A DNA stretch of 34,681 nucleotides from Fundidesulfovibrio agrisoli. Its GTDB lineage: Bacteria > Desulfobacterota > Desulfovibrionia > Desulfovibrionales > Desulfovibrionaceae. The stretch is taken from contig NZ_JAKZKX010000018.1 of assembly GCF_022808715.1 (NCBI RefSeq), forward strand, positions 1 to 34,681. The letters are read 5' to 3'. Made by a program: the position numbers and the translations under genes. Positions 270 to 15,960 of the stretch are shown here, piece after piece (position 1 is the first letter of the stretch; every line of letters begins with the position of its first letter). The notes beneath the pieces are model-generated. The model was not told the origin of the DNA. It saw nothing but the letters and a program-made list of their open reading frames with translations, and did no database searches.

Positions 270-319
270 GCGAAGCCGAAAGGGGTTCCAAGGGGCGCAG
301 CCCCTTGGCCGCCGGAGGC
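270..319 (+). repeat. Dispersed hairpin repeat, copy A
   Basis: The element runs from GCGAAGCC (270-277) to CCGCCGGAGGC (309-319). Its core is a perfect 9-bp stem, CCAAGGGGC (288-296) with GCCCCTTGG (300-308), closed by the three-base loop GCA. The same flanks and a stem with compensating base changes occur at 7937-8022 and 8232-8287. It lies 28 bases beyond the cbiO stop codon, downstream of that gene. Confidence 0.75.
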
Positions 320-346
320 CCCTACCCCCCTGAAAATCTCTCCGAT

Positions 347-1060
347 CTAGTCGTCGTGGCTGTGGGGCACGTCGCCCAGCGCGTGCACGTGCACGTGGGT
401 GTGGGGCGAGGCCGCCACGGCGTGCAGGTGCCCGTGGTCGAGCATGTAGTGCTCCGTGGCCACCTGGAGCAGGAAGTCCCACTCGTGGGAGACCACCAGC
501 AACCCCAGGTCCAGCCCGGTGAGCACCTCGGCCACGCGGGCCTTGCTCTCCGGGTCCAGCCCGGTGGTGGGCTCGTCCAGCAACAGGGCCTTGGGGCGCA
601 TGGCCAGCACCCCGGCCAGGGAGGCCAGGCGCTTCTCCCCCCCGGAGAGCCGGTGCGTGAGCCTGGGGCCGAACCCGGCCAGCCCGACCATCTCCAGACA
701 ATGCTCCGCCGTCTCCCTGGCTTCGCGCGGGCTGCTGCCCAGGTTCAGCGGGCCGAAGGCCACGTCCTCTATCACGGTGGGGCAGAAGAGCTGGTCGTCC
801 GGGTGCTGGAACAGGTAGCCCAGCACGCGCCGGGCGCAGCGCAGGCCCTCAGCGTCGGAACAGGCGGCGCCGTCCACGCGCACCGTGCCGCGCACCGGGC
901 GCACCAGGCCCATGATGGTCTTGAGCAGGGTGGTCTTGCCCGAGCCGGTGTGCCCGGCGAGGCCCACGCGCCCGCCCGGCGCAAGCTTCAGGTTCAGGCC
1001 GGTGATCACTTCGCGGCCGGGGTAGCCGCAGTGCAGATCCTCGATGTCGATGAGCGTCAT
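347..1060 (-). CDS. cbiO: Energy-coupling factor ATPase CbiO (cobalt/nickel uptake)
   Basis: This is the ATP-binding subunit of a group I ECF-type metal transporter. It hydrolyses ATP on the cytoplasmic face and drives uptake through CbiQ and CbiM. The 237-residue protein has a Walker A motif GHTGSGKTT (about 36-44), an LSGGEK signature, a Walker B ending LLLDEP and the switch histidine in VSHEWD. The last 23 residues form a tail with seven histidines (HTHVHVHA, HSHDD), suggesting metal storage or sensing. The ATG start overlaps the 3' end of cbiQ by 4 bases, which implies translational coupling. The substrate cannot be fixed from sequence: cobalt and nickel are the family norm, and the divergent zinc operon leaves other metals open. 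Confidence 0.92.
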   Translation of the reverse strand: MTLIDIEDLHCGYPGREVITGLNLKLAPGGRVGLAGHTGSGKTTLLKTIMGLVRPVRGTVRVDGAACSDAEGLRCARRVLGYLFQHPDDQLFCPTVIEDVAFGPLNLGSSPREARETAEHCLEMVGLAGFGPRLTHRLSGGEKRLASLAGVLAMRPKALLLDEPTTGLDPESKARVAEVLTGLDLGLLVVSHEWDFLLQVATEHYMLDHGHLHAVAASPHTHVHVHALGDVPHSHDD

Positions 1061-1785
1061 AGCGCCTCCGTGAACAGCACCGCGCAGGCCAGAACGGTGC
1101 AGCCAAGGCACAGGGCGGTGTCCGCCGCGCGCCAGCCGCTGGTTCCAAGAGTGCGGAAGCGCCCGTCGAAGCCCCGGCAGAGCATGGCCTGGTGGATGGC
1201 CCCGGCCCTGTCCATGGCCCGGATGAACAGCAGTGCCAAGAGCAGGGCGTAGGTGCTCCAGGCCCGGCGGCTGGTGCCGGGGTCGAAGCCGCGCAGCCTG
1301 GCCGCGGTGAGCAGCCGGTCCCACTCCCGGCGCATGAGCTCCAGGTAGCGGGCGGTCAGGGCCAGGATCAGACAGAGCTTGTCCGGCATGCCGAGCCCCG
1401 AGAGGGCCGCGCCGAACTCCGCCGGGCTGAGCGGCCGCACCAGCCCCCAGAAGATGAGCAGGATGGCGTTGCCCTTGGCGGTCATCAGCGCGGCCAGGGC
1501 CAGGCCCTCGCGGCTGAAGGGCCAGCCCGAAATGTGGAAGAGCGGCGCGCCCGGCACCGCGAAGGGCACCGTGGCCAGCAGCCCCAGAAAGAAAACGTTG
1601 ACGAAGGCCATGCGCTTGAGGAGCGGCCCGGGGCCGTCCCAACCCAGAGCCAGGGCGGCGAGCCCGCAGGCCAGGGCCAGGCCCGCGCCGGGCCAGGAGT
1701 GGCAGACCGCAGACGCCACGCACAGGGCCACGGCTCCGGCCAGCCTGGAGCGGCCGTCCAATACGGGAGCGGGGGCCGGTACCAC
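1057..1785 (-). CDS. cbiQ: Energy-coupling factor transmembrane protein CbiQ
   Basis: This is the T-component of the ECF metal transporter, an inner membrane protein that couples CbiO ATPases to the substrate-binding CbiM. It has 242 residues with several hydrophobic segments at about 14-45, 58-78, 102-120, 170-190 and 220-240. The cytoplasmic coupling helices carry the family pattern ALTARYLELMRREWDRL and, later, AMLCRGFDGR. The GTG start immediately follows the cbiM stop codon with no gap, so M, Q and O are read as one unit. No CbiN or NikL-type small subunit gene lies between M and Q. Confidence 0.9.
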   Translation of the reverse strand: MVPAPAPVLDGRSRLAGAVALCVASAVCHSWPGAGLALACGLAALALGWDGPGPLLKRMAFVNVFFLGLLATVPFAVPGAPLFHISGWPFSREGLALAALMTAKGNAILLIFWGLVRPLSPAEFGAALSGLGMPDKLCLILALTARYLELMRREWDRLLTAARLRGFDPGTSRRAWSTYALLLALLFIRAMDRAGAIHQAMLCRGFDGRFRTLGTSGWRAADTALCLGCTVLACAVLFTEAL

Positions 1786-2376
1786 CTAGAGGTACTCCGG
1801 GCGCAGGCGCTTGATGAAGCCCAGGATGAGCAGGGTGATGACGCCCTCCACGCCCATGAGCGCCAAGTGCGTCCAGAAGAACAGCCCGGCGAACAGGGCC
1901 AGCTCCCCGCCGCTGGCCACCAGGGCCGTGTAGAGCAGCGCCAGGCTGCCCAGGATGGGCAGCGCCCCGCACAGGAAGGCGGCCACCGGGAAGGCCGGGC
2001 CGCCCTTGCGCAGCAGCGGGCGCAGCGCCAGCCCGGCGAGCACCGCCGGCAGGCCCATGACCACGGTGTTCACGCCGAGCACCGTGAGCCCGCCGAACTG
2101 GAAGAGCAGCGCCTGGAGCAAAAGCCCCACGAAGATTGCCGGAAAGGCCGCCCAGCCCAGGAGCGCGCCCATGAGCCCGGAGAGGATCAGGTGCACGCTG
2201 GCGGGCCCCAGGGGCAGATGCACCAGACTGGCGGCGAAGAAGGCGGCCGAGAGCACGCCGGTGCGCACCAGGGCCTCACCCTCCAGCTTGCGGATGCCCA
2301 CGCCCAGGCCCACGGCGGCAAGGGCCGCGCCTGTGGCCAGCACGGGGGCTGAGAGAATTCCTTCGGAGATGTGCAT
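1786..2376 (-). CDS. cbiM: Substrate-binding membrane subunit CbiM
   Basis: This is the S-component that binds the divalent metal (Co2+ or Ni2+) in an ECF transporter. The start at 2376 is chosen because the family N-terminus MHISEG begins there. In characterised NikM/CbiM proteins the free N-terminus and His2 coordinate the metal, so an upstream extension would destroy the site. Further conserved histidines are at residues 53 and 62. The protein has 196 residues, about six hydrophobic helices, and no fused CbiN part. The leader between the gene and the divergent znu promoter holds two palindromes but no recognisable cobalamin riboswitch. The ribosome site (TCTGGA) is weak. Confidence 0.9.
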   Translation of the reverse strand: MHISEGILSAPVLATGAALAAVGLGVGIRKLEGEALVRTGVLSAAFFAASLVHLPLGPASVHLILSGLMGALLGWAAFPAIFVGLLLQALLFQFGGLTVLGVNTVVMGLPAVLAGLALRPLLRKGGPAFPVAAFLCGALPILGSLALLYTALVASGGELALFAGLFFWTHLALMGVEGVITLLILGFIKRLRPEYL

Positions 2377-2400
2377 TGCGTTACGTCCAGAGAGGCTTTG

Positions 2401-2415
2401 CCTGACGATGTCAGG
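2401..2415 (-). promoter_or_regulatory. Palindrome in the cbiM leader
   Basis: CCTGAC (2401-2406) and GTCAGG (2410-2415) form a perfect 6-bp inverted repeat around GAT, 25 bases upstream of the cbiM start. It could be a repressor operator or a short RNA stem in the 5' leader. The regulator is unknown. Confidence 0.35.
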
Positions 2416-2475
2416 GGACTGGTTCCGCCCACGCGGGGGGGCCGCGCGGGTGGGTGAGCAGTACCCCGTGGCGCC

Positions 2476-2489
2476 TGCTTGGGCAAGCA
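2476..2489. promoter_or_regulatory. TGCTTG-GG-CAAGCA palindrome in divergent region
   Basis: A perfect 6-bp inverted repeat with a 2-base centre lies about midway between cbiM and znuA, next to an AT-rich stretch (2490-2500) that could be part of the cbiM promoter. Its position suits an operator for the cbi unit. I could not match it with confidence to a NikR or other known site. Confidence 0.35.
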
Positions 2490-2544
2490 TACATATTTCA
2501 CATTCGTGTCGCATGGACAAACCTTCATGCGCCTGCCGATCCTG

Positions 2545-2573
2545 TTGACATCGATGCAACCAAGTTGCATTAC
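2545..2573 (+). promoter_or_regulatory. znu promoter with embedded candidate Zur operator
   Basis: A consensus -35 TTGACA (2545-2550) is followed 17 bases later by a weak -10, CATTAC (2568-2573). Between them is a perfect 7-bp inverted repeat, ATGCAAC (2554-2560), spacer CAA, GTTGCAT (2564-2570). A repressor bound there would block RNA polymerase. The downstream operon encodes zinc uptake plus a Fur-family protein, so Zur is the natural candidate ligand. That assignment is inference; the palindrome and spacing are visible. Confidence 0.65.
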
Positions 2574-2600
2574 CCGGGCATCACATCGTGAGGTAGTTCG

Positions 2601-3488
2601 ATGATTCGTGCCTTTGTCGGAATACTGGTCCTGCTGGCCTGCGTGCTCCTGGGCGTCGCCGCCCAGGCCGCGCCCCTCGAGGTTGCGGTCAGCGTGGCTC
2701 CGCAGAAATACTTCATCCAGAAGCTGGCCGGGCCGCTGGCCCGCGTCTCCGTGATGGTCTCCCCCGGGGCGGACCCGCACAGCTTCGAGCCCAAGGCCAG
2801 CCAGATGGCCCAGGTGGCCGGAGCCAGGCTCTATTTCGCCCAGGGCGTGGAGTTCGAGCAGGTCTGGCTGCCCAGGATGGCCGCATCCAACAAGGGGCTG
2901 ACCGTGGTGGACGCCACCGCCGGGATCGACCTGCTGCCCCTGGAGGAGCACGGCCACGACAAGGAAGCCGGGCACCAGCACGCCGCCGGCTCGGACAAGG
3001 AGACCGACCCCCACACCTGGACCTCCCCCCGCCTGGCCAAGCTGGAGGCCGCCAACATGGCCCGCGCCCTGGCCCAGGCCGACCCGGCCAACGCCCAGGC
3101 CTACGAGGCCAACCTGGCGGCCCTGAGCCAGGAGATCGACGCCCTGGACGCCTCCATCCGCGAAGCCCTGCAAGGGCTGCCCGAGGGGGCCTCCTTCCTG
3201 GTGTTCCACCCGGCCTGGGCCTACTTCGCAAGGGAGTACGGCCTGCGCGAGGTGGGCATCGAGGTGGGCGGCAAGGAGCCGGGACCGCGTCTTCTGCGCA
3301 AGATCATCGACGAATCCCGCAAGAAGGGCGTGAAGGTGGTCTTCGTGCAGCCCCAGTTCTCGCGCAAGGCCGCGCAGTCCGTGGCCGAGGGCATCGGCGC
3401 CACCCTGGCCGTGGCCGACGACCTGGCCGAGGACTGGGCCGCCAACCTGCTCCAGGTGGCCAAGGCTTTCCGGGAAGCCGCGAGATAA
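2601..3488 (+). CDS. znuA: Zinc ABC transporter substrate-binding protein ZnuA
   Basis: This is a periplasmic high-affinity zinc-binding protein that delivers Zn2+ to ZnuBC. The 295 residues begin with a signal peptide (hydrophobic core about 5-20, AQA cleavage near 23). Likely metal ligands are His60 (DPHSFEPK), His138 (DPHTW), His203 (FHPAW) and an Asp near 273-274. A histidine-rich acidic loop at about 117-127 (HGHDKEAGHQH) is typical of zinc rather than manganese binders. A GAGGT ribosome site precedes the ATG by 6 bases. It is the first gene of znuA-znuC-znuB-zur, behind the palindrome-bearing promoter at 2545-2573. Confidence 0.94.
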   Translation: MIRAFVGILVLLACVLLGVAAQAAPLEVAVSVAPQKYFIQKLAGPLARVSVMVSPGADPHSFEPKASQMAQVAGARLYFAQGVEFEQVWLPRMAASNKGLTVVDATAGIDLLPLEEHGHDKEAGHQHAAGSDKETDPHTWTSPRLAKLEAANMARALAQADPANAQAYEANLAALSQEIDALDASIREALQGLPEGASFLVFHPAWAYFAREYGLREVGIEVGGKEPGPRLLRKIIDESRKKGVKVVFVQPQFSRKAAQSVAEGIGATLAVADDLAEDWAANLLQVAKAFREAAR

Positions 3489-3507
3489 GGGGAAGGACAT
3501 CAGGCGC

Positions 3508-4287
3508 ATGAACGAACCGGCCATCGAACTCAAGGGCCTGAGCTTCGGCTACGACGGCTCCCCCGTGCTCGAAGGGGTGAACCTGAGCGTGCCCCAGGGC
3601 GAATACCTGGCCGTGCTCGGCCCAAACGGCGGCGGCAAGACCACCCTGCTCAAGCTCCTGCTGGGGCTGGAGCAGCCCACGGCGGGCACGGTGCGCGTGC
3701 TGGGGCAGGAGCCCTCGCAGGCTTCCCGGCTGGTGGGCTACATGCCGCAACTCACCTCCCAGGGGCGCGACTTCCCCATCTCCGTGCTGCAGACCGCGTT
3801 GCTCGGGCGGCTCAACTCCCGCTCCTGGTGGCCCCGCTGGCCCCGGCGCGACAGGGACAAGGCCATGGAATGCCTGGAGCGCGTGGGCGTGGAGCATCTG
3901 GCGGACAAGCCCCTCTCCGACCTCTCCGGCGGGCAGCGCCAGCGTGTGTTCATCGCCCGGGCCCTGGCCGGGGAGCCCAGGATGCTCCTGCTGGACGAGC
4001 CCACCGCCAGCGTGGACCCCGAGGGCCGGGCCTCCCTGCAGGAGCTGCTGGGCGAGCTGGCCAAGACCCTCACGGTGGTGCTGGTCAGCCACGACCTCTC
4101 CGTGATCTCGCGCCACGTGAGCTGCGTGGCCTGCGTGAACCGCACCGTGCACTTCCACCCCAGGCCCGAGGTCACGCCGGAGATGTTCGGCATGATGTAC
4201 CAGTGCGGCCCCCACAGTTGCCCCGTGGAGATGATCGCCCACGGCATACCGCACCGGGTCCTGGCCCCGCACGAGGTCAAGCCGTGA
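3508..4287 (+). CDS. znuC: Zinc ABC transporter ATPase ZnuC
   Basis: This is the cytoplasmic ATPase that powers zinc import through ZnuB. The 259-residue protein has Walker [10 protein letters not shown] (about 38-46), a Q-loop in MPQLTSQ, the ABC signature LSGGQRQR (139-146), Walker B LLLDEP (about 160-165) and the switch histidine in VSHDLS. The C-terminal 50 residues contain several His and Cys residues (FHPRPE, CGPHSCP), as seen in some metal-importer ATPases. It starts 19 bases after znuA, and its stop codon overlaps the GTG start of znuB by 4 bases. Confidence 0.94.
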
Positions 4288-5087
4288 TCGACATCCTCTC
4301 CTACGATTTCATGCGCAACGCGCTCATGGCCGGGCTGCTGGCCAGCGTGGCCTGCGGCATCATCGGCACGCTGGTGGTGGTCAACCGGGTGGTGTTCGTG
4401 GCGGGGGGCATCTCCCACGCGGCATACGGCGGCGTGGGCCTGGCCTTCTTCCTGGGCCTTCCCGTGCTGCCGGTGACGGTGGCCTTCTCCCTGGGCGTGG
4501 CCGCGCTCATGGCCAAGGTGACCTTCGGCAAGCGGGAGCGGGCCGACACCGTGGTGGGCGTGCTCTGGGCCGCGGGCATGGCCTTCGGCATCATCCTCAT
4601 GGACCTGACCCACGGCTACAACGTGGACCTGATGAGCTTCCTCTTCGGCTCCATCCTCTCGGTGCCGCAGTCCGACCTGTGGCTCATGGCCGGGCTGGAC
4701 ACGCTGCTGGTGGCCGTGGTGGCCTTCGCCTACCGGGGCTTCCTGGCCATGAGCTTCGACCCGGAGTTCGCCGGGCTGCGCGGCGTGCCGGTGAAGCTGC
4801 TGCACCTGGCCATGCTCTGCATGATCGCGGTGTCCATCGTGATGATCATCCGGGTGGTGGGCCTGATCCTGGTGATCGCCCTGCTGACCATCCCGCCCTA
4901 CCTGGCCGAGCGCGGCGGGCGCTCCCTGGGCGGGATGATGACCGCCTCCGCGCTCTACTCCGTGCTGTTCTGCCTGAGCGGGCTGGCCCTCTCCTACGCC
5001 TTCGACCTGACCTCGGGCGCGAGTATCATCGCCGTGGCCACGGTGTGGTTCTTCGCCAGCCAGGGCCTCAAGGGAAGGCGCGCCTGA
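4284..5087 (+). CDS. znuB: Zinc ABC transporter permease ZnuB
   Basis: This is the inner membrane channel subunit of the zinc importer (ABC-3 family). It has 267 residues and about eight hydrophobic segments, with the characteristic N-terminal pattern FMRNALMAGLLASVACGIIG and the loop GGISHAAYGGVGLA. The GTG start is chosen because it overlaps the znuC stop as GTGA, the usual coupled arrangement, and because it gives the family N-terminus. The stop codon shares one base with the start of the downstream Fur-family gene. Confidence 0.93.
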   Translation: MIDILSYDFMRNALMAGLLASVACGIIGTLVVVNRVVFVAGGISHAAYGGVGLAFFLGLPVLPVTVAFSLGVAALMAKVTFGKRERADTVVGVLWAAGMAFGIILMDLTHGYNVDLMSFLFGSILSVPQSDLWLMAGLDTLLVAVVAFAYRGFLAMSFDPEFAGLRGVPVKLLHLAMLCMIAVSIVMIIRVVGLILVIALLTIPPYLAERGGRSLGGMMTASALYSVLFCLSGLALSYAFDLTSGASIIAVATVWFFASQGLKGRRA

Positions 5088-5506
5088 TGTGCGGCTCCTG
5101 CGACCCCTCGCGTCTGCTGGAGGGCGGCAGCCTCAAGGCCACGCCCATGCGCCTGCGGGTGCTCTCGACGCTGCTGGCCGCCAGCGAGGCTCTGGGCGCG
5201 CCCGCCCTGCTCGAACTGCTGCGCCGCGAGGCCCCGGCGGACAAGGTGAGCCTCTACCGCACCCTGGAGACGCTCCTCCAGGCCGGGCTGGCCACCCGGC
5301 ACGAGGCCGGGGACGGCAGCGTGCGCTACTGCGCGGCCGGCCCCGCCCACCCGGACCACCACCACTTCTACTGCCTGAGCTGCCACAGGCTCTACTGCCT
5401 GGAGCAGGACGCCGTGAGCGTGGGCACCCGGGTGCCCGGCGTGAGCCACGTGAGCGTGCGCCTGGACGGCACCTGCCAGCGCTGCCGCACAGGCGCGGAC
5501 CAATGA
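5087..5506 (+). CDS. zur: Fur-family transcriptional regulator, probable Zur
   Basis: This is a metal-dependent repressor, most likely sensing zinc and controlling this operon. It has 139 residues: a winged-helix DNA-binding half (about 15-80, with [14 protein letters not shown] as the recognition region) and a dimerisation half with metal ligands. The latter include HHHFYC (91-96) and two structural CxxC pairs, C96/C99 and C130/C133. An extra CxxC occurs at the N-terminus (C2, C5). The start overlaps the znuB stop by one base. Autoregulation through the palindrome at 2554-2570 is plausible. Fur or another subfamily cannot be excluded from sequence; the zinc operon is the main argument for Zur. 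Confidence 0.85.
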
Positions 5507-5594
5507 AAGCCGCCTCGCCGGCAGGTTTTTCGTTGCCCGCGACTATGCCACGGAGTACATGGACGTCAGAAATCCCCACCAGCAGGAGACGCCC

Positions 5595-6650
5595 ATGATC
5601 GACGACATAGCACAACACCTCGGCGAGAAGGCCGCCTACTACCTCGATCACGTCTGCAAGGCCGTTCCCAGGCACACCCTGCACCTGCCCGGGCCCGACG
5701 TGGTGGACCGCATCTACGCCCAGACGGACCGCTCCGTGCCAGTGCTGCGCAACCTGCAGGCCCTGGTGGGCTCCGGCAGGCTCGGCGGCACGGGCTACGT
5801 GTCCATCCTGCCCGTGGACCAGGGCATCGAACACTCCGCCGGGGCCTCCTTCGCGCCCAACCCCATCTATTTCGACCCGGAGAACATCGTGAAGCTGGCC
5901 CTGGAGGCGGGCTGCAACGGCGTGGCCTCCACCCTGGGCGTGCTCGGGGCCGTGGCGCGCAAGTACGCCCACAAGATCCCCTTCATCCTCAAGCTCAACC
6001 ACAACGAGCTGCTCTCGCTGCCCGCCAAGGCGGACCAGATCATGTTCGCCCAGGTGGAGCAGGCCTTCGACATGGGCTGCGCCGCCGTGGGGGCCACGGT
6101 GTACTTCGGCGCGCCCGAATCCACCCGGCAGATCCAGGAGGTCTCCCACGCCTTCCGCCGCGCGCACGAGCTGGGCATGGCCACCATCCTCTGGTGCTAC
6201 ACGCGCAACCCGGCCTTCGTGAAGGACGGCGTGGACTACCACACCGCCGCCGACCTCACCGGCCAGGCCAACCACCTGGGCGTGACCATCCAGGCCGACA
6301 TCATCAAACAGAAGCTGCCCACCACCAACGGCGGCTACACGGCCATCAAGTTCGGCAAGACTGACCCGCGTGTCTATTCGCAACTGACCACCGCCCACCC
6401 CATCGACCTCTGCCGCTATCAGGTGCTCAACTGCTACGCCGGACGCATGGGGCTCATCAACTCGGGCGGGCCTTCGGGCGGCGCCACGGACATGGCCGAG
6501 GCCGTGATGACCGCCGTGGTCAACAAGCGCGCGGGCGGCATGGGGCTGATTTCGGGGCGCAAGGCCTTCCAGCGCCCCATGGAGGACGGCGTGCGCCTGC
6601 TGCACGCCATCATGGACGTCTACCTCTGCAAGGATGTGACCGTGGCCTGA
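5595..6650 (+). CDS. Class I fructose-bisphosphate aldolase (DhnA/FbaB type)
   Basis: This cytoplasmic enzyme reversibly cleaves fructose 1,6-bisphosphate into dihydroxyacetone phosphate and glyceraldehyde 3-phosphate through a lysine Schiff base, in glycolysis and gluconeogenesis. The 351 residues match the usual length of the archaeal-type FbaB family. Visible motifs are [11 protein letters not shown] (71-81), KLNHNELL (133-140) and ADIIKQK (234-240), which holds the expected Schiff-base lysine (238 or 240), followed by a phosphate-binding [12 protein letters not shown] region. The ATG at 5595 has an AGGAG site seven bases away; an in-frame ATG at 5559 lacks one. It is 88 bases downstream of zur and may have its own promoter. 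Confidence 0.9.
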
Positions 6651-6736
6651 TTGCCCGAACCGCCTTCGCAGAAGCCTGATTTGACAGGCGTTTCGTCCAC
6701 TGCCGATTCCTGCGGCGACTTAAGGCGACACCCTTC

Positions 6737-6760
6737 GGGAGGGGCTGCCAGGCCCCTCCC
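6737..6760 (+). terminator. Probable terminator hairpin after aldolase gene
   Basis: GGGAGGGGC (6737-6745) pairs perfectly with GCCCCTCCC (6752-6760) around a 6-base loop. The T-run (6774-6778) lies 13 bases further on, so intrinsic termination may be inefficient. The rest of 6651-6988 holds no gene I can support. Confidence 0.5.
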
Positions 6761-6988
6761 GCTAGCCAGCCCATTTTTCCGGCCTTATATCTACTGAAGG
6801 CCCCCGGTGGACAAGCTCAAGCAACCGGCATAAGCGACACGCCCACGGGCCGGACGACCCGCGCCGCAAGGCGCGGCATAGGGGCCGCCCCATGAACCGC
6901 CGGACGCGGGCGGAAAGGAAATGCTTGCGCATTCGGCCGGTGGTAACCGGGCCGATTCCGGAAACGTCATCACTCAGAGGAATACAGC

Positions 6989-7897
6989 ATGAAGCAGCAC
7001 TGTCAGAAAACCAGTGCCCGATACAACGGCAGGATTCACCCCGTGGAGGGCACCCTGCGCGAAGGAATCATGACCTGCCCCGCCACCCGGTTGTCCGTGC
7101 TGCTCGCGGCGCTGCTCCTGGGCCTGGCGCTGACGCTCGCGGCCCTTCCGGCCAGGGCCGCCCAGGACGGTGCGGAGGCGGCCGCCGCGCCCGCGCCAGA
7201 GGCCTCCTTGGAAGCCCCCAAGCCCGCAGCCACGGTCGCGCCGGACCGCAGCAAGGCCCTGCTGGCCCTGTTGGACAGGATGAAATCGAGCTACGCCGCC
7301 CTCAAGGACTTCACCGCCACCTTCCAGAAGCAGGAGAAGGTCGGCAACAAGATGTTCCGGGACGACCACATCGAGCTCAAGTTTCAGAAGCCCTTCAAGG
7401 TCTACATGAAATGGATGGGCGAGGCCAAAGAGGCGCTCTACGTCGAGGGGCAGTACAACAACAAGGTGCTGGCCCGCTGTGACGGCCTGCTGGGCCTTGC
7501 CACCTGGTCCTTCAGCCCGAGGAGCTCCGCGCTCATGCGCGAGAGCCGCCACCCCATCACCGAGGTCGGCTTCGGGTTCATCCTGGACGTGATGAACAAG
7601 AACATCCCCAAGGCGCACGAGAACGGCGACATGGAGATCGTCAAGATGGGCGACGACCAGTTCGACGGCCGCCCCGCCACCGTGGTCGAAGCCAAGTTCA
7701 ATTCGAGCGAGGCTCACCAGTACTACACCTCGCGCATCGTTTTCCACGTGGACAAGGAGTTCCTGCTGCCCGTGGGCATCGCCTGCTACGACGACAAGGG
7801 CGAGCTTCAGGAGGAGTACATCTACAAGAACCTGAAGCCCAACTCCGGCCTGACCGAGATGGATTTCTCCAAGGACAACAAGGAATACCGCTTCTAA
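6989..7897 (+). CDS. Exported DUF1571-like protein
   Basis: Its function is unknown. The mature part resembles DUF1571 proteins, a LolA/LolB-like fold group of envelope proteins: residues about 90-275 contain YAALKDFTATFQKQEKV, IELKFQKPFKVYMKWMG, ALYVEGQYNN, GLLGLATW and RHPITEVGFGF. A signal peptide lies at about residues 33-57 (hydrophobic LLAALLLGLALTLAAL, then ARA). The chosen ATG has a good AGAGGA site. An internal ATG at 7070 would give a textbook signal peptide, but its AAGGA is only 3 bases away. Residues 59-85 are an Ala/Pro-rich linker. A periplasmic or outer membrane role is inferred; no operon partner is evident. Confidence 0.8.
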   Translation: MKQHCQKTSARYNGRIHPVEGTLREGIMTCPATRLSVLLAALLLGLALTLAALPARAAQDGAEAAAAPAPEASLEAPKPAATVAPDRSKALLALLDRMKSSYAALKDFTATFQKQEKVGNKMFRDDHIELKFQKPFKVYMKWMGEAKEALYVEGQYNNKVLARCDGLLGLATWSFSPRSSALMRESRHPITEVGFGFILDVMNKNIPKAHENGDMEIVKMGDDQFDGRPATVVEAKFNSSEAHQYYTSRIVFHVDKEFLLPVGIACYDDKGELQEEYIYKNLKPNSGLTEMDFSKDNKEYRF

Positions 7898-7936
7898 CGG
7901 CTGCCCCGGGCGCACGGCCGCCGGGCCGGGCCCAAC

Positions 7937-8022
7937 GCGAAGCCGGAAAGGATTCCAAAGGAACGAAGTTCCTTTGGCGGGAGTGTCCAGAGAGGGCGGA
8001 GCCCTCTTTGGCCGCCGGAGGC
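7937..8022 (+). repeat. Dispersed hairpin repeat, copy B (double stem)
   Basis: It opens with GCGAAGCC (7937-7944) and closes with CCGCCGGAGGC (8012-8022), like copy A. It has two stems. CCAAAGGAAC (7955-7964) pairs with GTTCCTTTGG (7968-7977) around GAA. CCAGAGAGGGC (7987-7997) pairs with GCCCTCTTTGG (8001-8011) around GGA, with one G-T pair. The second stem looks like a duplicated, diverged version of the first. Both loops fit the GNA pattern. Confidence 0.75.
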
Positions 8023-8132
8023 TTCTCCTCCCTCCTGCCGAGCCTGATGAAACTTCGGGCGGAACCGTGGGGCCGGGATAAGGATGCGGTTTGTTTGCTT
8101 GCGCCCGTGCAGAGGCTGTGAGTTGTGGCGGG

Positions 8133-8217
8133 TCCAGCCGTGGCCTCCCCGAAGCCGAACTGGCTGATGTTCTTCAAATACAGCGGACAGTTCGGCTTCG
8201 GGGAGGTTGCGGCTGGA
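8133..8217. ncRNA. Long perfect stem-loop, candidate structured RNA
   Basis: Bases 8144-8162 and 8188-8206 are a perfect 19-bp inverted repeat. The helix continues outward through three positions that would be G-U wobbles in RNA (8141-8143 with 8207-8209) and then eight more Watson-Crick pairs, giving 30 consecutive pairs (8133-8162 with 8188-8217). The 25-base loop contains another 4-bp stem, GCTG with CAGC. No coding sequence covers it. It sits between two inverted copies of the hairpin repeat in a gene-free region (7898-8413), upstream of the permease gene. It could be an RNA, a leader structure or part of a fold-back element. Confidence 0.5.
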
Positions 8218-8231
8218 GCCTGGGAGACCGT

Positions 8232-8287
8232 GAAGCCTCCGGCGGCCAAAGGGAGTTCCTCCCTTTGGAATCCCATCCGGCTTCGCG
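8232..8287 (-). repeat. Dispersed hairpin repeat, copy C
   Basis: On the minus strand this copy reads GCGAAGCCGG, then the stem, then CCGCCGGAGGCTTC. The stem arms are 8246-8255 and 8259-8268, a perfect 10 bp, with loop GAA on the minus strand. It is inverted relative to copy B, 209 bases away, and the two flank the long stem-loop at 8133-8217. Confidence 0.75.
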
Positions 8288-8413: not shown

Positions 8414-9385
8414 ATGTACGAATCCTTTCAGATTTTCGCCCAGATCTGCGTGGCCATCCTGTTGGAGGCCGCGCCGTTTCTGCTTCTGGGGGCGCTGGCC
8501 TCGGGCCTGTTCGAGGTGTTCGCCTCCAGGGACTGGATCGAGCGGCTCATGCCCCGCTCCCCCCTGGCGGGCGTTCTCGCGGGCACCGTGCTCGGGCTGA
8601 TGATGCCCTGCTGCGAGTGCGGCATCGTGCCCCTGGTGCGCCGCCTCATCGCCAAGGGCGTGCCCCCGGCCACGGCCATGACCTTCATGCTGGCCGGGCC
8701 GGTCATCAACCCGGTGGTGCTGGCCTCCACCTTCGTGGCCTTCCAGGGCGACCTGACCGTGGTGGCCCTGCGCTGCGCCCTTGTGGCGTTGATCGCGGCC
8801 GCCGTGGGCTTCAGCCTGCGCAACAAGTCTCCGGAGGAGATCCTGCTGCCCGCTGCCGCGTCCGGGGCCGCCTGCGGCTGCGGTGACGAACCCGCCCCCG
8901 CCGGGGCGCTGTTCGGCTCCCTGGCCGACGCCGCGCCGCTCTCCGCGCTCAAGGGGCCGAGCCTGCGCACCCGGCTGGACCACGCCCTGCGCCACGCCCA
9001 GGGCGACTTCCTGGACATGTTCCGCATCCTCATTCTCGGGGCCATGGTGGCGGCGGCCTTCAAGACCTTCGTCCCGGCGGGCTTCGTGAGCATGATGCAG
9101 GGCGACCTGATGCTCTCGGTTGTGGGCATGATGGGCCTTGCCGTGCTGCTCTCCCTGTGCTCCCAGGCCGACGCCTTCGTGGCCGCCTCCTTCTCGGGCT
9201 TCCCCCTGGCCGCCCGGCTGGCCTTCCTGGCCCTGGGGCCGGTGCTGGACGTCAAGCTCGTGCTCATGTGGCAGGGGGCTTTCCGCTACAAGGTCATCAA
9301 GCTGCTGGCGCTGGTGCCCATGGTCCTGGTCTTTTCCGCCTGCATGCTGCTGGGAGCGGCCTTGAAGCTCTGGGGGCCGCAATGA
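8414..9385 (+). CDS. Permease, YraQ/ArsP-type (DUF318)
   Basis: This predicted inner membrane permease has 323 residues and about eight hydrophobic segments in two halves separated by a hydrophilic region (about 140-200). The hallmark PCCECG (about 68-73) is followed by VPLVRRL and a helix ending AGPVINPVV, matching the family that includes YraQ and the organoarsenical exporter ArsP. The central loop carries a CGCG cysteine cluster. Cysteines suggest a thiophilic metal, metalloid or thiol-bound substrate, but the true substrate is unknown. The ATG start overlaps nothing upstream; GGAG lies 12 bases away. Its stop overlaps the next gene by 4 bases, the usual pairing for this family. Confidence 0.85.
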   Translation: MYESFQIFAQICVAILLEAAPFLLLGALASGLFEVFASRDWIERLMPRSPLAGVLAGTVLGLMMPCCECGIVPLVRRLIAKGVPPATAMTFMLAGPVINPVVLASTFVAFQGDLTVVALRCALVALIAAAVGFSLRNKSPEEILLPAAASGAACGCGDEPAPAGALFGSLADAAPLSALKGPSLRTRLDHALRHAQGDFLDMFRILILGAMVAAAFKTFVPAGFVSMMQGDLMLSVVGMMGLAVLLSLCSQADAFVAASFSGFPLAARLAFLALGPVLDVKLVLMWQGAFRYKVIKLLALVPMVLVFSACMLLGAALKLWGPQ

Positions 9386-10313: not shown

Positions 10314-11237
10314 TCAGGCTTTCGGGGCCGCGTCCAAAGCGTCGAGCAGGGTTTCGATCTTGCCGCGCGCCTTGAGCGCCTCCAGCCAGTGCGGGGGCAG
10401 GGCATCCAGCCCGCGCCAGGCCCCCAGGACCATCCCGATGAGCATGTTGCGCGCGGCAGAGTCGCCCCCGGCCATGGTGGAATCCACCAGGGCCTCGGCC
10501 GGGGCATCCTGATGGCGCAGGATCACCTGCACGGTGGACTGGAAGGCCCCGTCCACATGGCAGCTCTGCCCGAACCTGTTGATTGCCGTGAGGCAGTCCG
10601 TGCCCTGCTGGGCCTGGGCGTCGGCGAACCACTGGTGCAACGGGGAGCCGGGCAGCCTGCCCGCCAGCGCCCGGGCCATGGCCTCGCGGGGGGGCGTACC
10701 GCCCAGAACGGCCGCCGTGGTGCGGGCGAAGAACTCGGCCGAATCGCCCACCTTGCCGTTGTTGTGCGTCAGGGTGGTCTGGCGGCGGCAGGCGGCCACC
10801 AGGGCCTCCTCGTCGCCATGCAGCAGATAGACCAGCGGGGCGATGCGCGAGGCCCCGGCCAGGTCGTCGGAGATGGAGCCCGCGTCGCCGTATTCCCAGC
10901 CCGCGACCAGCTGGTTCAAGGTGTTGCGGGTGGCGCGGTCCACGTAGCTTGGCGCGCCTCCCTCGAAGTGAGCCCGCCAGGCGCGGGAGAAATCCTCGGC
11001 GTCGAAGCCCTTGGCCCGCGCCAGGGATTCGAGCAGCACCATGGTCTGGTCGCCGTAGTGGGTGAAGTCGCCGGCCTGCTTGCCCGGATGGTAGGAGTCG
11101 GGCCCGGGGGCCTTGAGCCTGTCGATGCGGCCGTGCACCTCGGCCAGGAGTTGCTGGTCGTATATCCAGTGGACGCCCAGGGCCAGGCTGTCCCCGAGGA
11201 AGCTCGTCAACACCATTGCGCGCGCCGCGTCTGCCAT
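10314..11237 (-). CDS. ADP-ribosylglycohydrolase-family protein, altered metal site
   Basis: The 307-residue protein has the all-helical DraG/ARH fold signatures: GDSLALGVHWIYD (15-27), the N-terminal metal motif region around HYGDQT (60-65) and the C-terminal GGDSAARN (257-264). Classical enzymes, which remove ADP-ribose from proteins using two Mg2+ ions, have DDT in the first motif and GGDTDT in the second. Here the first reads GDQT and the second GDSA, so several acidic ligands are absent. It may be a subfamily with another substrate, or inactive. A GGAGGT site precedes the ATG. It lies downstream of hcp but behind a strong terminator, so it is probably separately transcribed. Confidence 0.82.
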   Translation of the reverse strand: MADAARAMVLTSFLGDSLALGVHWIYDQQLLAEVHGRIDRLKAPGPDSYHPGKQAGDFTHYGDQTMVLLESLARAKGFDAEDFSRAWRAHFEGGAPSYVDRATRNTLNQLVAGWEYGDAGSISDDLAGASRIAPLVYLLHGDEEALVAACRRQTTLTHNNGKVGDSAEFFARTTAAVLGGTPPREAMARALAGRLPGSPLHQWFADAQAQQGTDCLTAINRFGQSCHVDGAFQSTVQVILRHQDAPAEALVDSTMAGGDSAARNMLIGMVLGAWRGLDALPPHWLEALKARGKIETLLDALDAAPKA

Positions 11238-11318
11238 TCCTGACCTCCAAGGTTGCGATTGCGCTCATTGTTACGCCCGCATCCGGGCCGGGGCAAGTGT
11301 ATAGGGACGAAAACAGTC

Positions 11319-11349
11319 GGGGCGCGCGGCTTATGCGGCCGCGCGCCCC
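11319..11349 (-). terminator. Terminator downstream of hcp
   Basis: GGGGCGCGCGGC (11319-11330) pairs with GCCGCGCGCCCC (11338-11349), a perfect 12-bp stem with a 7-base loop. On the minus strand it is followed within a few bases by TTTT. It starts 37 bases after the hcp stop codon. Confidence 0.7.
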
Positions 11350-11386
11350 TTGTGGTGGAGGAAGGCGAGGAGAAAGCGGTTGCGTG

Positions 11387-13021
11387 TTAGCCCAGGATGG
11401 CCTTGATGTCCTCATCCGGGGTGGTGATGGGCATGATGTTCAGCTTGTCCACCAGAACCTTCAGCACGTTGGGGGTGACGAAGGCGGGCAGGGAGGGTCC
11501 GAGGCGGATGTCCTTGATACCCAGGGCCACCAGGGTGAGCAGGATGGCCACGGCCTTCTGCTCGTACCAGGACAGGACCATGGAGAGCGGCAGGTCGTTG
11601 ACGCCGCAGTTGAAGGCTCCGGCCAGGGCGATGGCTACCTGGATGGCGGAGTAGGCGTCGTTGCACTGGCCCATGTCCAGCAGGCGGGGGATGCCGCCGA
11701 TGTCGCCCAGGTCCTTGTCGAAGAAGCGGAACTTGCCGCAGGCCAGGGTCAGGACCACGGTGTCCTTGGGCAGCTTCTCCACGAACTCGGTGTAGTAGTT
11801 GCGGCCGGGCTTGGCGCCGTCGCAGCCGGCCACCAGGAAGAAGCGGCGGATGGCGCCGGACTTCACCGCGTCGATGACCTTGTCCGCCACGCCCAGGACG
11901 GCGTTGCGGGCGAAGCCGGTGAGCACCTGCTTGCCGGGCACGTCGGCGGCGAAGCCGGGCAGCTTCAGGGCGTGCTCGATCACGGCGGAGAAGTCGTAGC
12001 CGTCGACGTGCTTCACGCCGGGGAAGCCCACCAGGCCGTGGGTGAAGACGTTGTCCTTGTAGGACTCGGAGGGCTTCATCAGGCAGTTGGTGGTGAAGAG
12101 GATCGCGCCGGGGAACTGGGCGAACTCCTTCTGCTGGTTCTGCCAGGCCGTGCCGAAGTGCCCGTAGAGGTGGGGATACTTCTGCTTGAGCTTGGGGTAG
12201 CCGTGGGCGGGCAGCATCTCGCCGTGGGTGTACACGTTGATGCTCTTGCCCTCGGTCTGCTTGAGCAGCTCTTCCAGATCCTTCAGGTCGTGGCCGGTAA
12301 TCAGGATGGCCTTGCCAGCCTTCTGGCCCAGGGGCACGGCGGTGGGCGTGGGGTGGCCGTAGGCTTCGGTGTTGGCCTTGTCCAGGGCTTCCATGGCCAG
12401 CAGGTTCACCTGGCCGGCCTTGATGGCGCTGTTGAACCAATAGTCCATGCCCAGGCCGGGCTTGGTGGCGGCGGCCATGGCCTCGTGGATGTAGTCGTAG
12501 ATTTCCTTGTTCTCGACACCCAGGATGCGGGCGTGGTCGGCGTAGGCGGCCAGGCCCTTGAGCCCGAAGAGCACCATGTGCTGCAGCGACACGATGTCGG
12601 GGTCGGTGTCGGGGTTGTCCTTCATGCCGCCCTTGCCGGTGGCGGCCTCGGCGACCAGGGCCTCCATGCCGGCCGGGGCGGTGAAGCTCACGGAGGCGTG
12701 CGCGGGGATGGCGCCGCCGGCGGCCTTGACCTTGGCTTTGAGGGCCTCGCGCAGCGAGACGGTCTGGTTGATCCAGGCCTGGAAGCGGGCGGGGTCGAAG
12801 TCCACGTTGGTCAGGGTGGCGAAGAGCATGGCGGGCACGTGGCGGTCGACCTCGACGTCGACCACGCCGACCTTGCGGCCTTCCTCGGCCACGAGGCTCA
12901 GGCCGCGCAGGGCGTAGACCAGCAGGTCCTGCAGGTTGGAGGTGGTGTCGTCCTTGCTGCACACGCCGATCTTGTCGCAGCCCTTGCCGTGCATCGTCTG
13001 CTCACACTGGTAACAGAACAT
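11387..13021 (-). CDS. hcp: Hydroxylamine reductase / hybrid cluster protein, class I
   Basis: This cytoplasmic iron-sulfur protein reduces hydroxylamine to ammonia in vitro. In anaerobes it is tied to nitric oxide and nitrosative stress, with NO reductase activity shown for some homologues. The 544 residues start with the cubane-cluster cysteines C3, C6, C15 and C21 (spacing 2, 8, 5), the class I pattern of strict anaerobes; class II enterobacterial proteins have wider spacing. Further conserved stretches include ILITGHDLKDLEELL, FTTNCLMKP, CDGAKPGRNYY and MGQCNDAYSA, which carry hybrid-cluster ligands. The start at 13021 has GGGAGGA 5 bases upstream. Upstream lies a CRP/FNR-type palindrome, likely HcpR-controlled. 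Confidence 0.96.
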   Translation of the reverse strand: MFCYQCEQTMHGKGCDKIGVCSKDDTTSNLQDLLVYALRGLSLVAEEGRKVGVVDVEVDRHVPAMLFATLTNVDFDPARFQAWINQTVSLREALKAKVKAAGGAIPAHASVSFTAPAGMEALVAEAATGKGGMKDNPDTDPDIVSLQHMVLFGLKGLAAYADHARILGVENKEIYDYIHEAMAAATKPGLGMDYWFNSAIKAGQVNLLAMEALDKANTEAYGHPTPTAVPLGQKAGKAILITGHDLKDLEELLKQTEGKSINVYTHGEMLPAHGYPKLKQKYPHLYGHFGTAWQNQQKEFAQFPGAILFTTNCLMKPSESYKDNVFTHGLVGFPGVKHVDGYDFSAVIEHALKLPGFAADVPGKQVLTGFARNAVLGVADKVIDAVKSGAIRRFFLVAGCDGAKPGRNYYTEFVEKLPKDTVVLTLACGKFRFFDKDLGDIGGIPRLLDMGQCNDAYSAIQVAIALAGAFNCGVNDLPLSMVLSWYEQKAVAILLTLVALGIKDIRLGPSLPAFVTPNVLKVLVDKLNIMPITTPDEDIKAILG

Positions 13022-13069
13022 ATTGATCCTCCCTTGGGGTTGGTTGGCGATTGCCGTCGTCTGGAGCGG

Positions 13070-13112
13070 TATATAGGCCCACCGCCCTAAGCCGGATGTG
13101 ACCTGTGTCACA
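13070..13112 (-). promoter_or_regulatory. hcp promoter with candidate HcpR site
   Basis: TGTGAC (13097-13102) and GTCACA (13107-13112) form a perfect CRP/FNR-type palindrome with a 4-base centre. On the minus strand a TATATA -10 element occupies 13075-13070, predicting transcription from about 13063. The palindrome centre is then at -41.5, the classic position for activation by a CRP/FNR protein. HcpR of Desulfovibrio species is a known CRP/FNR-family regulator of hcp. That this site is bound by HcpR is inference. Confidence 0.75.
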
Positions 13113-14525: not shown

Positions 14526-15960
14526 CCGCTTCTTCCTCATCTTGGTAGCCCTGCTGGCCTGGCTGGCCGCCGCGGCCCCGGCCCGGGCCGTGGAGGTGCG
14601 CATGGGCGGCGAGCACTACGTCTATGCGGCCAGCTTCGTGAACCGAAACTTCACCGGCTGGAGCGCGGACGGCTCCCAGACCGAGGACGCCTTCACCCTC
14701 TGGCAGCGCACGCGCCTGCGCCTGGACCTCACCTCCGGCGAGAACCTTGGATTCAGCCTCTGGGCCCAGGTGCAGAACACCCCCTGGGGCAATTCCACCC
14801 TCACCGTGGACAACCCGGCCGTGGCCGTACAGATCTTCAAGGCCTACCTTCTCTTCAAGGTTCCCGGCACCGGGATCGAGGCGGCGGCGGGCAAGCTGAC
14901 CGTGACCCTGCCCCAGTCCGAGGCCTTCAGCGGAAGCATCGTCCTGGATTCGGAGCTGGGCGCGCTCACCGCCAAGGCCCCCCTGGGCGAGAGCGCTTCC
15001 ATCACCCTCGGCTACGGGCGTCCGCTGGGCTACGTCAACGCCCTGGAGAACGTGGCGGCCAACCCCCGCGACGTTTTGGACCTGTTCTTCGCCGCCCTGC
15101 CCGTGACGGGCGAGGCCATCTCGGCCACGCCCTGGCTCATGGCCGGGCTCTTCGCCAACAACGGGGCCAACACCCCCTATCAGGGCGCGGGCGGCCCGCC
15201 GGACCTGGGCTACATCCGGCAGGACATGCTCTCCATCGGCTATTTCGAGCGGACGCCCGGTTTCCGCCAGTCCTGCGCGCCCTACTTCTGGGCCGGGTCG
15301 AGCTTCAAGCTGGGGCTTGAGAGGGTGAGCCTGTACGCCGACGCGGCGGCCGGCCTGGGCGGGGCCTGGGACGCGCCCAAGAATCGGCGGCGGGGCGTCT
15401 TCATGGATGCGGCCGCGTCCTACGACGCCCTGGGCTTCATGGCCCCGCGCCTGTTCGGCTGGTGGTCCAGCGGGGAGGACGCGGACGTGCGGGGCGGCTC
15501 CGAGCGCATGCCCGCCCTGGTGCGCACCTGGAACGCCGGGGCCTCCTACCTGTTCTCCACCGGCCAGGTGTTCGACAACACGACGAGCACCAACGCCTGC
15601 CCCGTCGGGGCCTGGGGCCTGGGCGCGAGCCTGGACGCCGTGAGCATCATCCCGGAGCTGACTTCGCGGCTCACCGCCGTGTACGCGCGCGGCGCGAACG
15701 ACCCCAAAGCCCTGCGCCGCGCCGTGGAGCTCACCGGGGAGAACGGCATGGCCCAGATGGGCAGGCACCTGAGCGTGAACGAGCACCTGATCGGCGTGAA
15801 CTTCGACCACACCTGGGCGGTGTGCGACGGTCTCAAGATCGTGGTGGAGACGGGCTGGGCCCACGCGGGCGGGCTGCAGCGAAGCATCTGGGGCCGCCGC
15901 TTCACGGACGCCGCGCGCGATTCCTGGAAGGCGGCCTGGGGGCTGCTGTACACGTTCTGA
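14512..15960 (+). CDS. Outer membrane homotrimeric porin-like protein
   Basis: This is a beta-barrel channel for small solutes in the outer membrane. The 482-residue precursor begins with a signal peptide (hydrophobic LILVALLAWLAAA, then APARA cleaved near residue 26) and continues with alternating beta-strand patterns such as TLWQRTRLRLDLTSG and GFSLWAQVQN. It ends in a terminal aromatic residue (LLYTF), the classic signal for insertion by the BAM complex. The sequence style matches the porins abundant in Desulfovibrio. The GTG start lies inside the 3' end of the cyclase gene (14-base overlap); no better start keeps the signal peptide. A functional link to the cyclase is uncertain. Confidence 0.85.
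   Translation: MNPPSRFFLILVALLAWLAAAAPARAVEVRMGGEHYVYAASFVNRNFTGWSADGSQTEDAFTLWQRTRLRLDLTSGENLGFSLWAQVQNTPWGNSTLTVDNPAVAVQIFKAYLLFKVPGTGIEAAAGKLTVTLPQSEAFSGSIVLDSELGALTAKAPLGESASITLGYGRPLGYVNALENVAANPRDVLDLFFAALPVTGEAISATPWLMAGLFANNGANTPYQGAGGPPDLGYIRQDMLSIGYFERTPGFRQSCAPYFWAGSSFKLGLERVSLYADAAAGLGGAWDAPKNRRRGVFMDAAASYDALGFMAPRLFGWWSSGEDADVRGGSERMPALVRTWNAGASYLFSTGQVFDNTTSTNACPVGAWGLGASLDAVSIIPELTSRLTAVYARGANDPKALRRAVELTGENGMAQMGRHLSVNEHLIGVNFDHTWAVCDGLKIVVETGWAHAGGLQRSIWGRRFTDAARDSWKAAWGLLYTF

Follow-up and report, generated by a model that had tools for sequence, protein, structure and literature searches.

The window analyzed here, a stretch of 34,681 nucleotides (nt) covering positions 1 to 34,681 of contig NZ_JAKZKX010000018.1 of Fundidesulfovibrio agrisoli, carries three copies of a dispersed hairpin repeat. 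An initial annotation had proposed these copies at 270-319, 7937-8022, and 8232-8287, with shared flanks, and direct reading confirms them, the core of the third lying at 8235-8286. We find that the repeat occurs in many copies, sits between genes at their 3′ ends, has compensatory changes in its stem and a conserved core, and turns over between sister species, in a genus whose genomes gave no match to the Y1 transposase. We consider it probable that this is an untagged family resembling repetitive extragenic palindromic (REP) elements, acting mainly as a 3′-end hairpin at each site and gaining new copies by a route other than Y1.

Three copies lie beside genes in the window

All three copies share the flanks GCGAAGCC and CCGCCGGAGGC. 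Copy A (270-319, forward strand) is a single hairpin, CCAAGGGGC-GCA-GCCCCTTGG by direct reading, with a stem of 9 base pairs (bp; 288-296/300-308) and its loop at 297-299. Its tail CCGCCGGAGGC (309-319) is followed by a pyrimidine-rich tract, and the gene facing this tail (347-1060, reverse strand; presumably an ABC-type ATPase) has its 3′ end 28 nt away. Copy B (7937-8022, forward strand) begins 40 nt past the 3′ end of a gene called from codon usage (6989-7897, forward strand). It holds two hairpins, at 7955-7977 (CCAAAGGAAC-GAA-GTTCCTTTGG, 10 bp) and 7987-8011 (CCAGAGAGGGC-GGA-GCCCTCTTTGG), followed by its tail (8012-8022) and a pyrimidine tract. Copy C (core 8235-8286, reverse strand), oriented opposite to copy B, is a single hairpin (CCAAAGGGAG-GAA-CTCCCTTTGG) with a 10-bp stem (8246-8255/8259-8268); downstream of it lies another codon-usage gene call (8414-9385, forward strand), whose product we take to be permease-like.

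All four loops in the window fit G-N-A, as had been claimed. The accompanying claim that stems of 9 to 10 bp pair perfectly holds for copies A and C and for the first hairpin of copy B, but not for the second, whose 11 pairs include one G.T, so that its pairing is slightly imperfect. Two-hairpin copies are numerous in the genus (84 to 93% identity over ~90 nt), and tandem hairpin modules also occur elsewhere, as in stretches L088 and L206 (L numbers denote stretches of DNA).

The inner stem covaries

Copies were compared in alignments of 26, 91, 56, and 42 copies. The first (A1) is a plain MAFFT alignment of copies with exact flanks, while the three larger ones (A2, A4, and A5) were fitted to a covariance model and so lean towards that model. 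In the 26-copy alignment, two-sided changes occur in 6 of 13 pairs and the covariation score is 0.273 versus 0.099 for shuffles; the 91-match alignment gives 0.282 versus 0.117. In neither case did any of 500 shuffles score as high. Two-sided changes affect 6, 8, 10, and 8 of the 10 inner-helix pairs (26, 91, 56, and 42 copies, respectively), and 98 to 99% of the cells in this helix are paired, far above shuffled and slid controls. A check for covariation across many copies had been set beforehand, and covariation was present; the claim that changes on one stem arm are matched on the other is strongly upheld for the inner helix in all four alignments. The outer helix, three pairs formed by GCGAAGCC with GGAGGC, is invariant in the 26-copy alignment. 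In the larger alignments, it is 78 to 90% paired, with two-sided changes in one, one, and two of its three pairs. Its pairing is not clearly supported.

Loops of the GNA type are local to the genus. They dominate the host genome (G000, 3.94 Mb), with 79 of 91 matches, whereas copies read by eye in other genomes also carry ATT, CAA, ACG, AGC, GGC, and TCA. Hairpins such as d(GCGAAGC) are extra stable, and the initial annotation had taken GNA loops to suggest selection for a DNA or RNA structure. The loops stand as a feature of G000; however, because GNA is not dominant in the copies examined from other genera, these loops alone are no pointer to single-stranded DNA.

The family is abundant and shared beyond the genus

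Whole-genome match counts given here are lower bounds, and a two-hairpin element may yield two matches. The flank pattern occurs at 27 exact places in G000, against none for a reversed-pattern control. A genome search with a covariance model had been suggested, and the model built from 26 copies (R1) gave at least 152 matches in G000, so further copies are abundant. The seven genomes of the genus hold at least 57 to 146 matches each. Many G000 copies lie within ~300 nt of contig ends (e.g., C4, C5, C13, C15, C19, C22, and C29, and further C30, C38, C40, C44, C45, C50, and C52). Thus, the repeats seem to break the assembly, which probably makes the count of copies too low.

Matches at E 1e-4 or better are present in 14 of 39 related genomes, including all seven of the genus. 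Among records chosen for holding the pattern (so that 11 of 11 is no frequency), we find matches in Desulfovibrionaceae X3 (at least 122), Solidesulfovibrio (at least 120), the Desulfovibrio records OttesenSCG-928-A18 (at least 58) and UBA2564 (at least 13), and three Desulfoluna genomes (at least 140, 58, and 75). The remainder are metagenome-assembled genomes (MAGs): Deltaproteobacteria (at least 111), Proteobacteria (at least 36), Clostridia (at least 49), and SUG1264, titled “bacterium” (at least 82). SUG1264 probably belongs to Clostridia, judging by its likeness to RGIG7318. In the family of its genome, 22 of 80 genomes have matches at E 1e-4, and five, SUG1264 included, have at least 20. 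Among 12 copies examined from that family, seven read ATTCCAAAGGG and two carry the tail CCGCCGGAGGC. This suggests that the hairpin module is the more widely shared part.

Most Desulfoluna pattern hits share the flanks without the central hairpin, and hairpin-bearing Desulfoluna copies exist too. In all, 80 of 88 pattern stretches were examined. Those outside Desulfovibrionaceae, Desulfoluna, and a few named MAGs were set aside by eye as chance hits, most having no long central stem. L120, one of the eight stretches outside the 80, is matched by R1. Carriage by phages or plasmids found no support: among 50,697 phage records and 72,556 plasmid records, none matched copy B at E 1e-5, and the exact module occurs in only three stretches of a viral contig collection.

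Copies are placed at gene 3′ ends

Genes were called with a codon-usage script on 41 sources from G000 (426 kilobases) and on 20 stretches from genome G005. Both sets were selected around copies, which inflates occupancy, although gap classes can still be compared. None of the 91 G000 matches lies in a gene: 38 are in convergent gaps, 50 in tandem gaps, one in a divergent gap, and two at edges. Counted by gaps of at least 60 nt, 26 of 43 convergent, 34 of 133 tandem, and 1 of 39 divergent gaps hold a copy. The 52 matches in G005 are distributed in the same classes (0 in genes; 19 convergent, 32 tandem, 0 divergent, 1 edge), with copies in 19 of 39 convergent, 31 of 121 tandem, and 0 of 42 divergent gaps of that size. 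The 43 copies from relatives, which include eight Desulfoluna pattern hits lacking the central hairpin, likewise all lie outside genes, and divergent gaps hold none of the 37 whose gap class could be assigned. Inverted neighbors are also found: by raw count, 15 pairs in the G000 stretches lie within 250 nt, 10 of them with a gap of 29 to 36 nt (one of these 10 being two halves of one element).

The high copy number, covariation, and intergenic 3′-end position together sustain the proposal of a REP-like dispersed hairpin family. The other proposal, a transcript-end element, is borne out as to intergenic position at gene 3′ ends, from which a function at RNA 3′ ends may be surmised. One such function would be that of a bidirectional, noncanonical terminator that spreads by virtue of its activity and uses the pyrimidine tract as a weak U-tract. 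This could explain the position at convergent and tandem 3′ ends, and the first five bases after the tail are indeed 0.86 pyrimidine (65 copies). However, C is at least as frequent as T in this tract in G000, although the tract is T-rich in G049, a genome with at least 111 element matches. Furthermore, the 11-nt tail separates stem from tract, the orientation favored near stop codons has no tract downstream, and there is no trade-off with canonical terminators. We regard a terminator as somewhat unlikely.

Copies might instead be kept for a role in DNA, as a cruciform or as a site for gyrase or a nucleoid protein, a role reported for the bacterial interspersed mosaic elements (BIMEs) of Escherichia coli. 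The occurrence of both orientations and of inverted pairs agrees with this, as do the DNA folds of copies B and C, which are better than shuffles (z −3.3 and −2.1). Nevertheless, the DNA fold of copy A is not (z −0.76), and the restriction to 3′ ends and the antisense bias near stop codons would need an extra reason. Thus, we consider a DNA role unlikely.

Copies are conserved in place yet turn over between sister species

The sister species (genome G003) is ~91% identical to G000 over the window block. Collinear blocks between the two (G000/G003) are window/L178, L172/L198+L200, L176/L199, L171/L268, L177/L269+L270, and L271/L270; a further block, L272/L273, has no matches. Of 22 G000 matches in these blocks, 13 have an ortholog in G003, that of copy A being at L178 15877-15926. 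The other nine, at five places, do not: copies B and C of the window; L172 3226; L176 3955; L177 3153, 3234, and 3304 (the latter two being parts of one two-hairpin element); and L271 5675 and 5761. In the window, the segment missing from G003 spans 350 bp (7927-8276) and comprises copy B, a long hairpin, and most of copy C. Because CCGGCTTTGCGTTG is retained in G003, a deletion fits as well as an insertion target. By eye, the two cleanest empty sites, L177 3137-3322 and L271 5584-5847, show no clear target duplication of the kind expected for a miniature inverted-repeat transposable element (MITE) of the DDE type. At least one copy is specific to G003 (L199 12927, inside a larger insertion). 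At L199 ~11220-12980 (contig C8 of G003), G003 has a coding-looking segment of ~1.7 kilobases, bordered by an element at either end, that G000 lacks, as if the repeats had mediated its gain or loss.

Where copies persist, their cores are conserved. Over its last 36 nt, the element is identical at 451 of 468 positions (96.4%) across the 13 ortholog pairs, while the 40-nt flanks of the same pairs are identical at 347 of 520 (66.7%) and 368 of 520 (70.8%). Core identity is 0.951 between orthologous copies versus 0.795 between nonorthologous copies, and the ortholog is strictly the best core match in 9 of the 13 pairs (best or tied in 10). Homogenization between copies is thus a poor explanation, and the conserved core within decayed flanks points, on this sequence comparison, to selection at the site instead. 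One pair (L271/L270) shows a full compensatory change from C-G to T-A. Taken with the sites missing in G003, the 96% core identity suggests that copies are constrained in place yet turning over.

A second dispersed repeat accompanies the element. Its copies are long hairpins whose loop is constant (ATTTGAAGA on one strand), whereas their arms vary from copy to copy but remain paired; they occur in the window and at L172 ~15800-15900, L199 ~13000-13100, and L171 ~6050-6180. The window example (8130-8220) lies on the 3′ side of copy C and has 41-nt arms that are 83% complementary, with the loop core TGTATTTGAAGAACATC on the copy C strand. At several copies, the long hairpin adjoins the element, just beyond its tail. 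A third hairpin family (GCGGGGCGCCGCCCCGCACCCCGCCAGGGGGATGATCCCCCTGGACCCCGC...) is found at L172 ~2260-2460 and at more than 10 further places in G003. No Rfam family matched in the window at gathering score. Matches of the long hairpin to the mraW RNA model (37.5 bits, gathering 50; E 3.9e-6) and, below threshold, to several microRNA models were judged to be generic hairpin matches, as was that of Clostridiales-2 to L088 (27.7 bits, gathering 58.6). Other permissive Rfam matches were to unrelated families and below threshold.

Paired changes in stems could also arise by mutation alone, if template switching within palindromes uses one arm to rewrite the other in repeats that are neutral in all other respects. 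The long hairpins, with a constant loop and arm segments exchanged between G000 and G003, fit this account, and at one ortholog (L176 2143) the stem end and loop of the element have been rewritten together. In G049 (L233 to L249), a short hairpin lies directly upstream of a 54-nt element core, and its stems differ by copy yet match, with a 5′ arm of GCTCCGC in some copies and GCGGAGC in others, beside cores that are mostly identical. However, neutrality leaves unexplained both the 96% core identity within flanks of 67 to 71% and the near-absence from divergent gaps, and we regard this account as somewhat unlikely.

The genus has no Y1 transposase match

The copying of REP elements is generally attributed to REP-associated tyrosine transposases (RAYTs), which belong to the Y1 HUH transposases. 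The Y1/RAYT domain (PF01797) was found in none of the seven genomes of the genus, one of which is 66% complete. The same search gave matches in 5 of 14 control genomes, E. coli included, and in 21 of 39 genomes overall. Among 19 tested genomes with at least 30 element matches (seven of the genus, G011, G018, G039, G040, and G042 to G049), PF01797 is absent from 13. It is present alongside elements in G011, G042, G045, and the three Desulfoluna genomes (G046 to G048), and absent from 6 of 11 other element-bearing genomes, G049 among them. Since several genomes are drafts or metagenome-assembled, little weight can be put on any single absence, but absence from all seven genomes of the genus does carry weight. 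In G049, the 54-nt core is identical in 15 of 17 copies read, with flanks unlike (most were picked for equal scores, so this ratio is no estimate of a fraction). This suggests recent copying with sharp ends in a genome without a Y1 match.

The Y1/RAYT driver suggested at the outset is thus not supported for the genus. A classical family mobilized by a RAYT acting on single-stranded DNA hairpins would share the size, copy number, intergenic position, inverted pairs, and present or absent sites seen here, and GNA triloops prevail in G000. Furthermore, G011, from another genus, has at least 109 element matches and two Y1 matches. Yet the genus and most of the 19 genomes lack PF01797, and the GTAG tag is absent. 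Replication-strand counts are too weak to decide: element strand agrees with corrected GC skew at third codon positions in 49 of 91 cases (p 0.53; 17 of 27 where skew exceeds 0.03) and with whole-stretch skew in 51 of 91 (p 0.29). Overall, RAYT mobilization of this family appears very unlikely.

A probable 3′-end hairpin copied by another route

In the reading that we favor, the unit consists of one or more modules of the form GGG(A/T/G)(N)TCC-stem-loop-stem-GG. In the genus, it usually finishes with the tail GGCCGCCGGAGGC followed by a pyrimidine-rich tract. Placed at a transcript's 3′ end, the hairpin would block 3′ exonucleases, help transcripts to end, or do both, a role of the kind proposed for REP elements. 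An RNA 3′-end function would be the most likely reading of the sequence evidence. New copies might come from the action in trans of some other kind of transposase, or from recombination and template switching between copies.

Several observations weigh against this reading. Orientation is not uniform: tandem gaps hold 26 sense and 24 antisense copies in G000 (11 and 21 in G005), and single copies within 60 nt of a stop codon are more often antisense than sense (18 to 9 in G000, 30 to 15 in G005, and 21 to 1 in relatives). Wobble pairs favor the other strand (41 G.U versus 9 A.C cells in A2, with a single column supplying 28 of the G.U cells), and with the antisense bias they pull in opposite directions for an RNA function on one strand. 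Occurrence of the element shows no association, negative or positive, with that of canonical terminators (odds ratios 0.77 and 0.76; p 0.66 and 0.69), and the 11-nt tail of the element sets the stem apart from the pyrimidine tract, unlike in a canonical terminator. In its native context, copy A is no more stable than shuffles, whether as RNA (z 0.44) or as DNA, although the RNA folds of copies B and C are better than shuffles (z −2.5 and −2.9). Among the 13 ortholog pairs, that at L176 10960 matches weakly (24 bits) and has no tail. Last, no copying enzyme was found in a search for Y1, the only transposase family sought.

More tentatively, a modular hairpin family (GGGATTCCAAAGGG...CCCTTTGG, often with the tail GGCCGCCGGAGGC) common to Desulfobacterota and Clostridia (MAGs) may move without an HUH transposase and then come under purifying selection as an orientation-biased 3′-end element. 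Such repeats would be mobile transcript-end signals, used by their hosts and with their own copying machinery.

We thus describe an abundant REP-like family whose copies differ between sister species, in a genus with seven genomes lacking a Y1 match. This combination suggests that such repeats are copied by some other enzyme or through recombination. The orthologous copies allow selection at a site to be measured apart from copying, and a core shared with a Clostridia MAG raises either horizontal spread or deep conservation of a 3′-end signal.

The family compares with known repeats as a variant of REP-like elements

As far as our literature searches reach, the family is unreported. The 17-mer CTCCGGCGGCCAAAGGG was not found in the literature searched, and occurrences of GGCCGCCGGAGGC or its complement were unrelated by title. 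Literature on REP, intergenic-repeat, or hairpin elements of Desulfovibrio contained nothing on such repeats, judged by title, and none was found for Faecalibacterium terms or Clostridiales-2. Neither “Desulfo” nor “Clostridi” occurs in the main text of PMC3733652.

In having a hairpin close to gene 3′ ends and a pyrimidine tract after it, the element resembles a Rho-independent terminator. However, no U-tract directly follows the stem as in an intrinsic terminator, and the element differs in its conserved 11-nt tail, C-rich tract, occurrence in both orientations, and dispersed, near-identical copies.

According to the portion of PMC3733652 available to us, REPs of several phyla mostly carry GTAG or CGTC tags, lie between convergent or unidirectional genes, and have alternative complementary stem residues. 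The present family is like the GTAG superfamily (REPs, BIMEs, and REP doublets forming hairpins, or REPINs), as described there, in its short palindromes, high copy number, intergenic position, inverted dimers, and complementary stem variants. It differs in having no GTAG end tag (GTAG or CTAC near an end in at most 5 of 91 G000 matches) and no Y1 match in the genus. The same text describes CGTC-tagged REPs, said to lack a dedicated transposase, in five phyla; here, GACG near the 5′ end (11 of 91) and CGTC near the 3′ end (7 of 91) make no consistent tag. Untagged REP-like repeats are listed there for Mycobacterium tuberculosis, Deinococcus radiodurans, Bordetellae, Brucellae, and Cyanobacteria (PMC3733652). 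Compared by that description, they too have no conserved terminal motifs, while the present family has a core sequence common to Desulfobacterota records and a Clostridia MAG.

In the portion of PMC3686654 available to us, REPs without a cognate RAYT are quite frequent, mostly with a RAYT in related strains or with a related REP class; here, in contrast, no searched member of the genus has a RAYT. Set beside these two reports, as far as their available text goes, the finding is less of a surprise than if taken by itself. We find a short imperfect palindrome in high copy number, with extragenic placing in convergent and tandem gaps, inverted pairs, and compensatory stems. The broad description of REPs fits, while neither a consistent tag nor a RAYT in the genus was found. 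This suggests that the family is a variant of the REP-like repeats.

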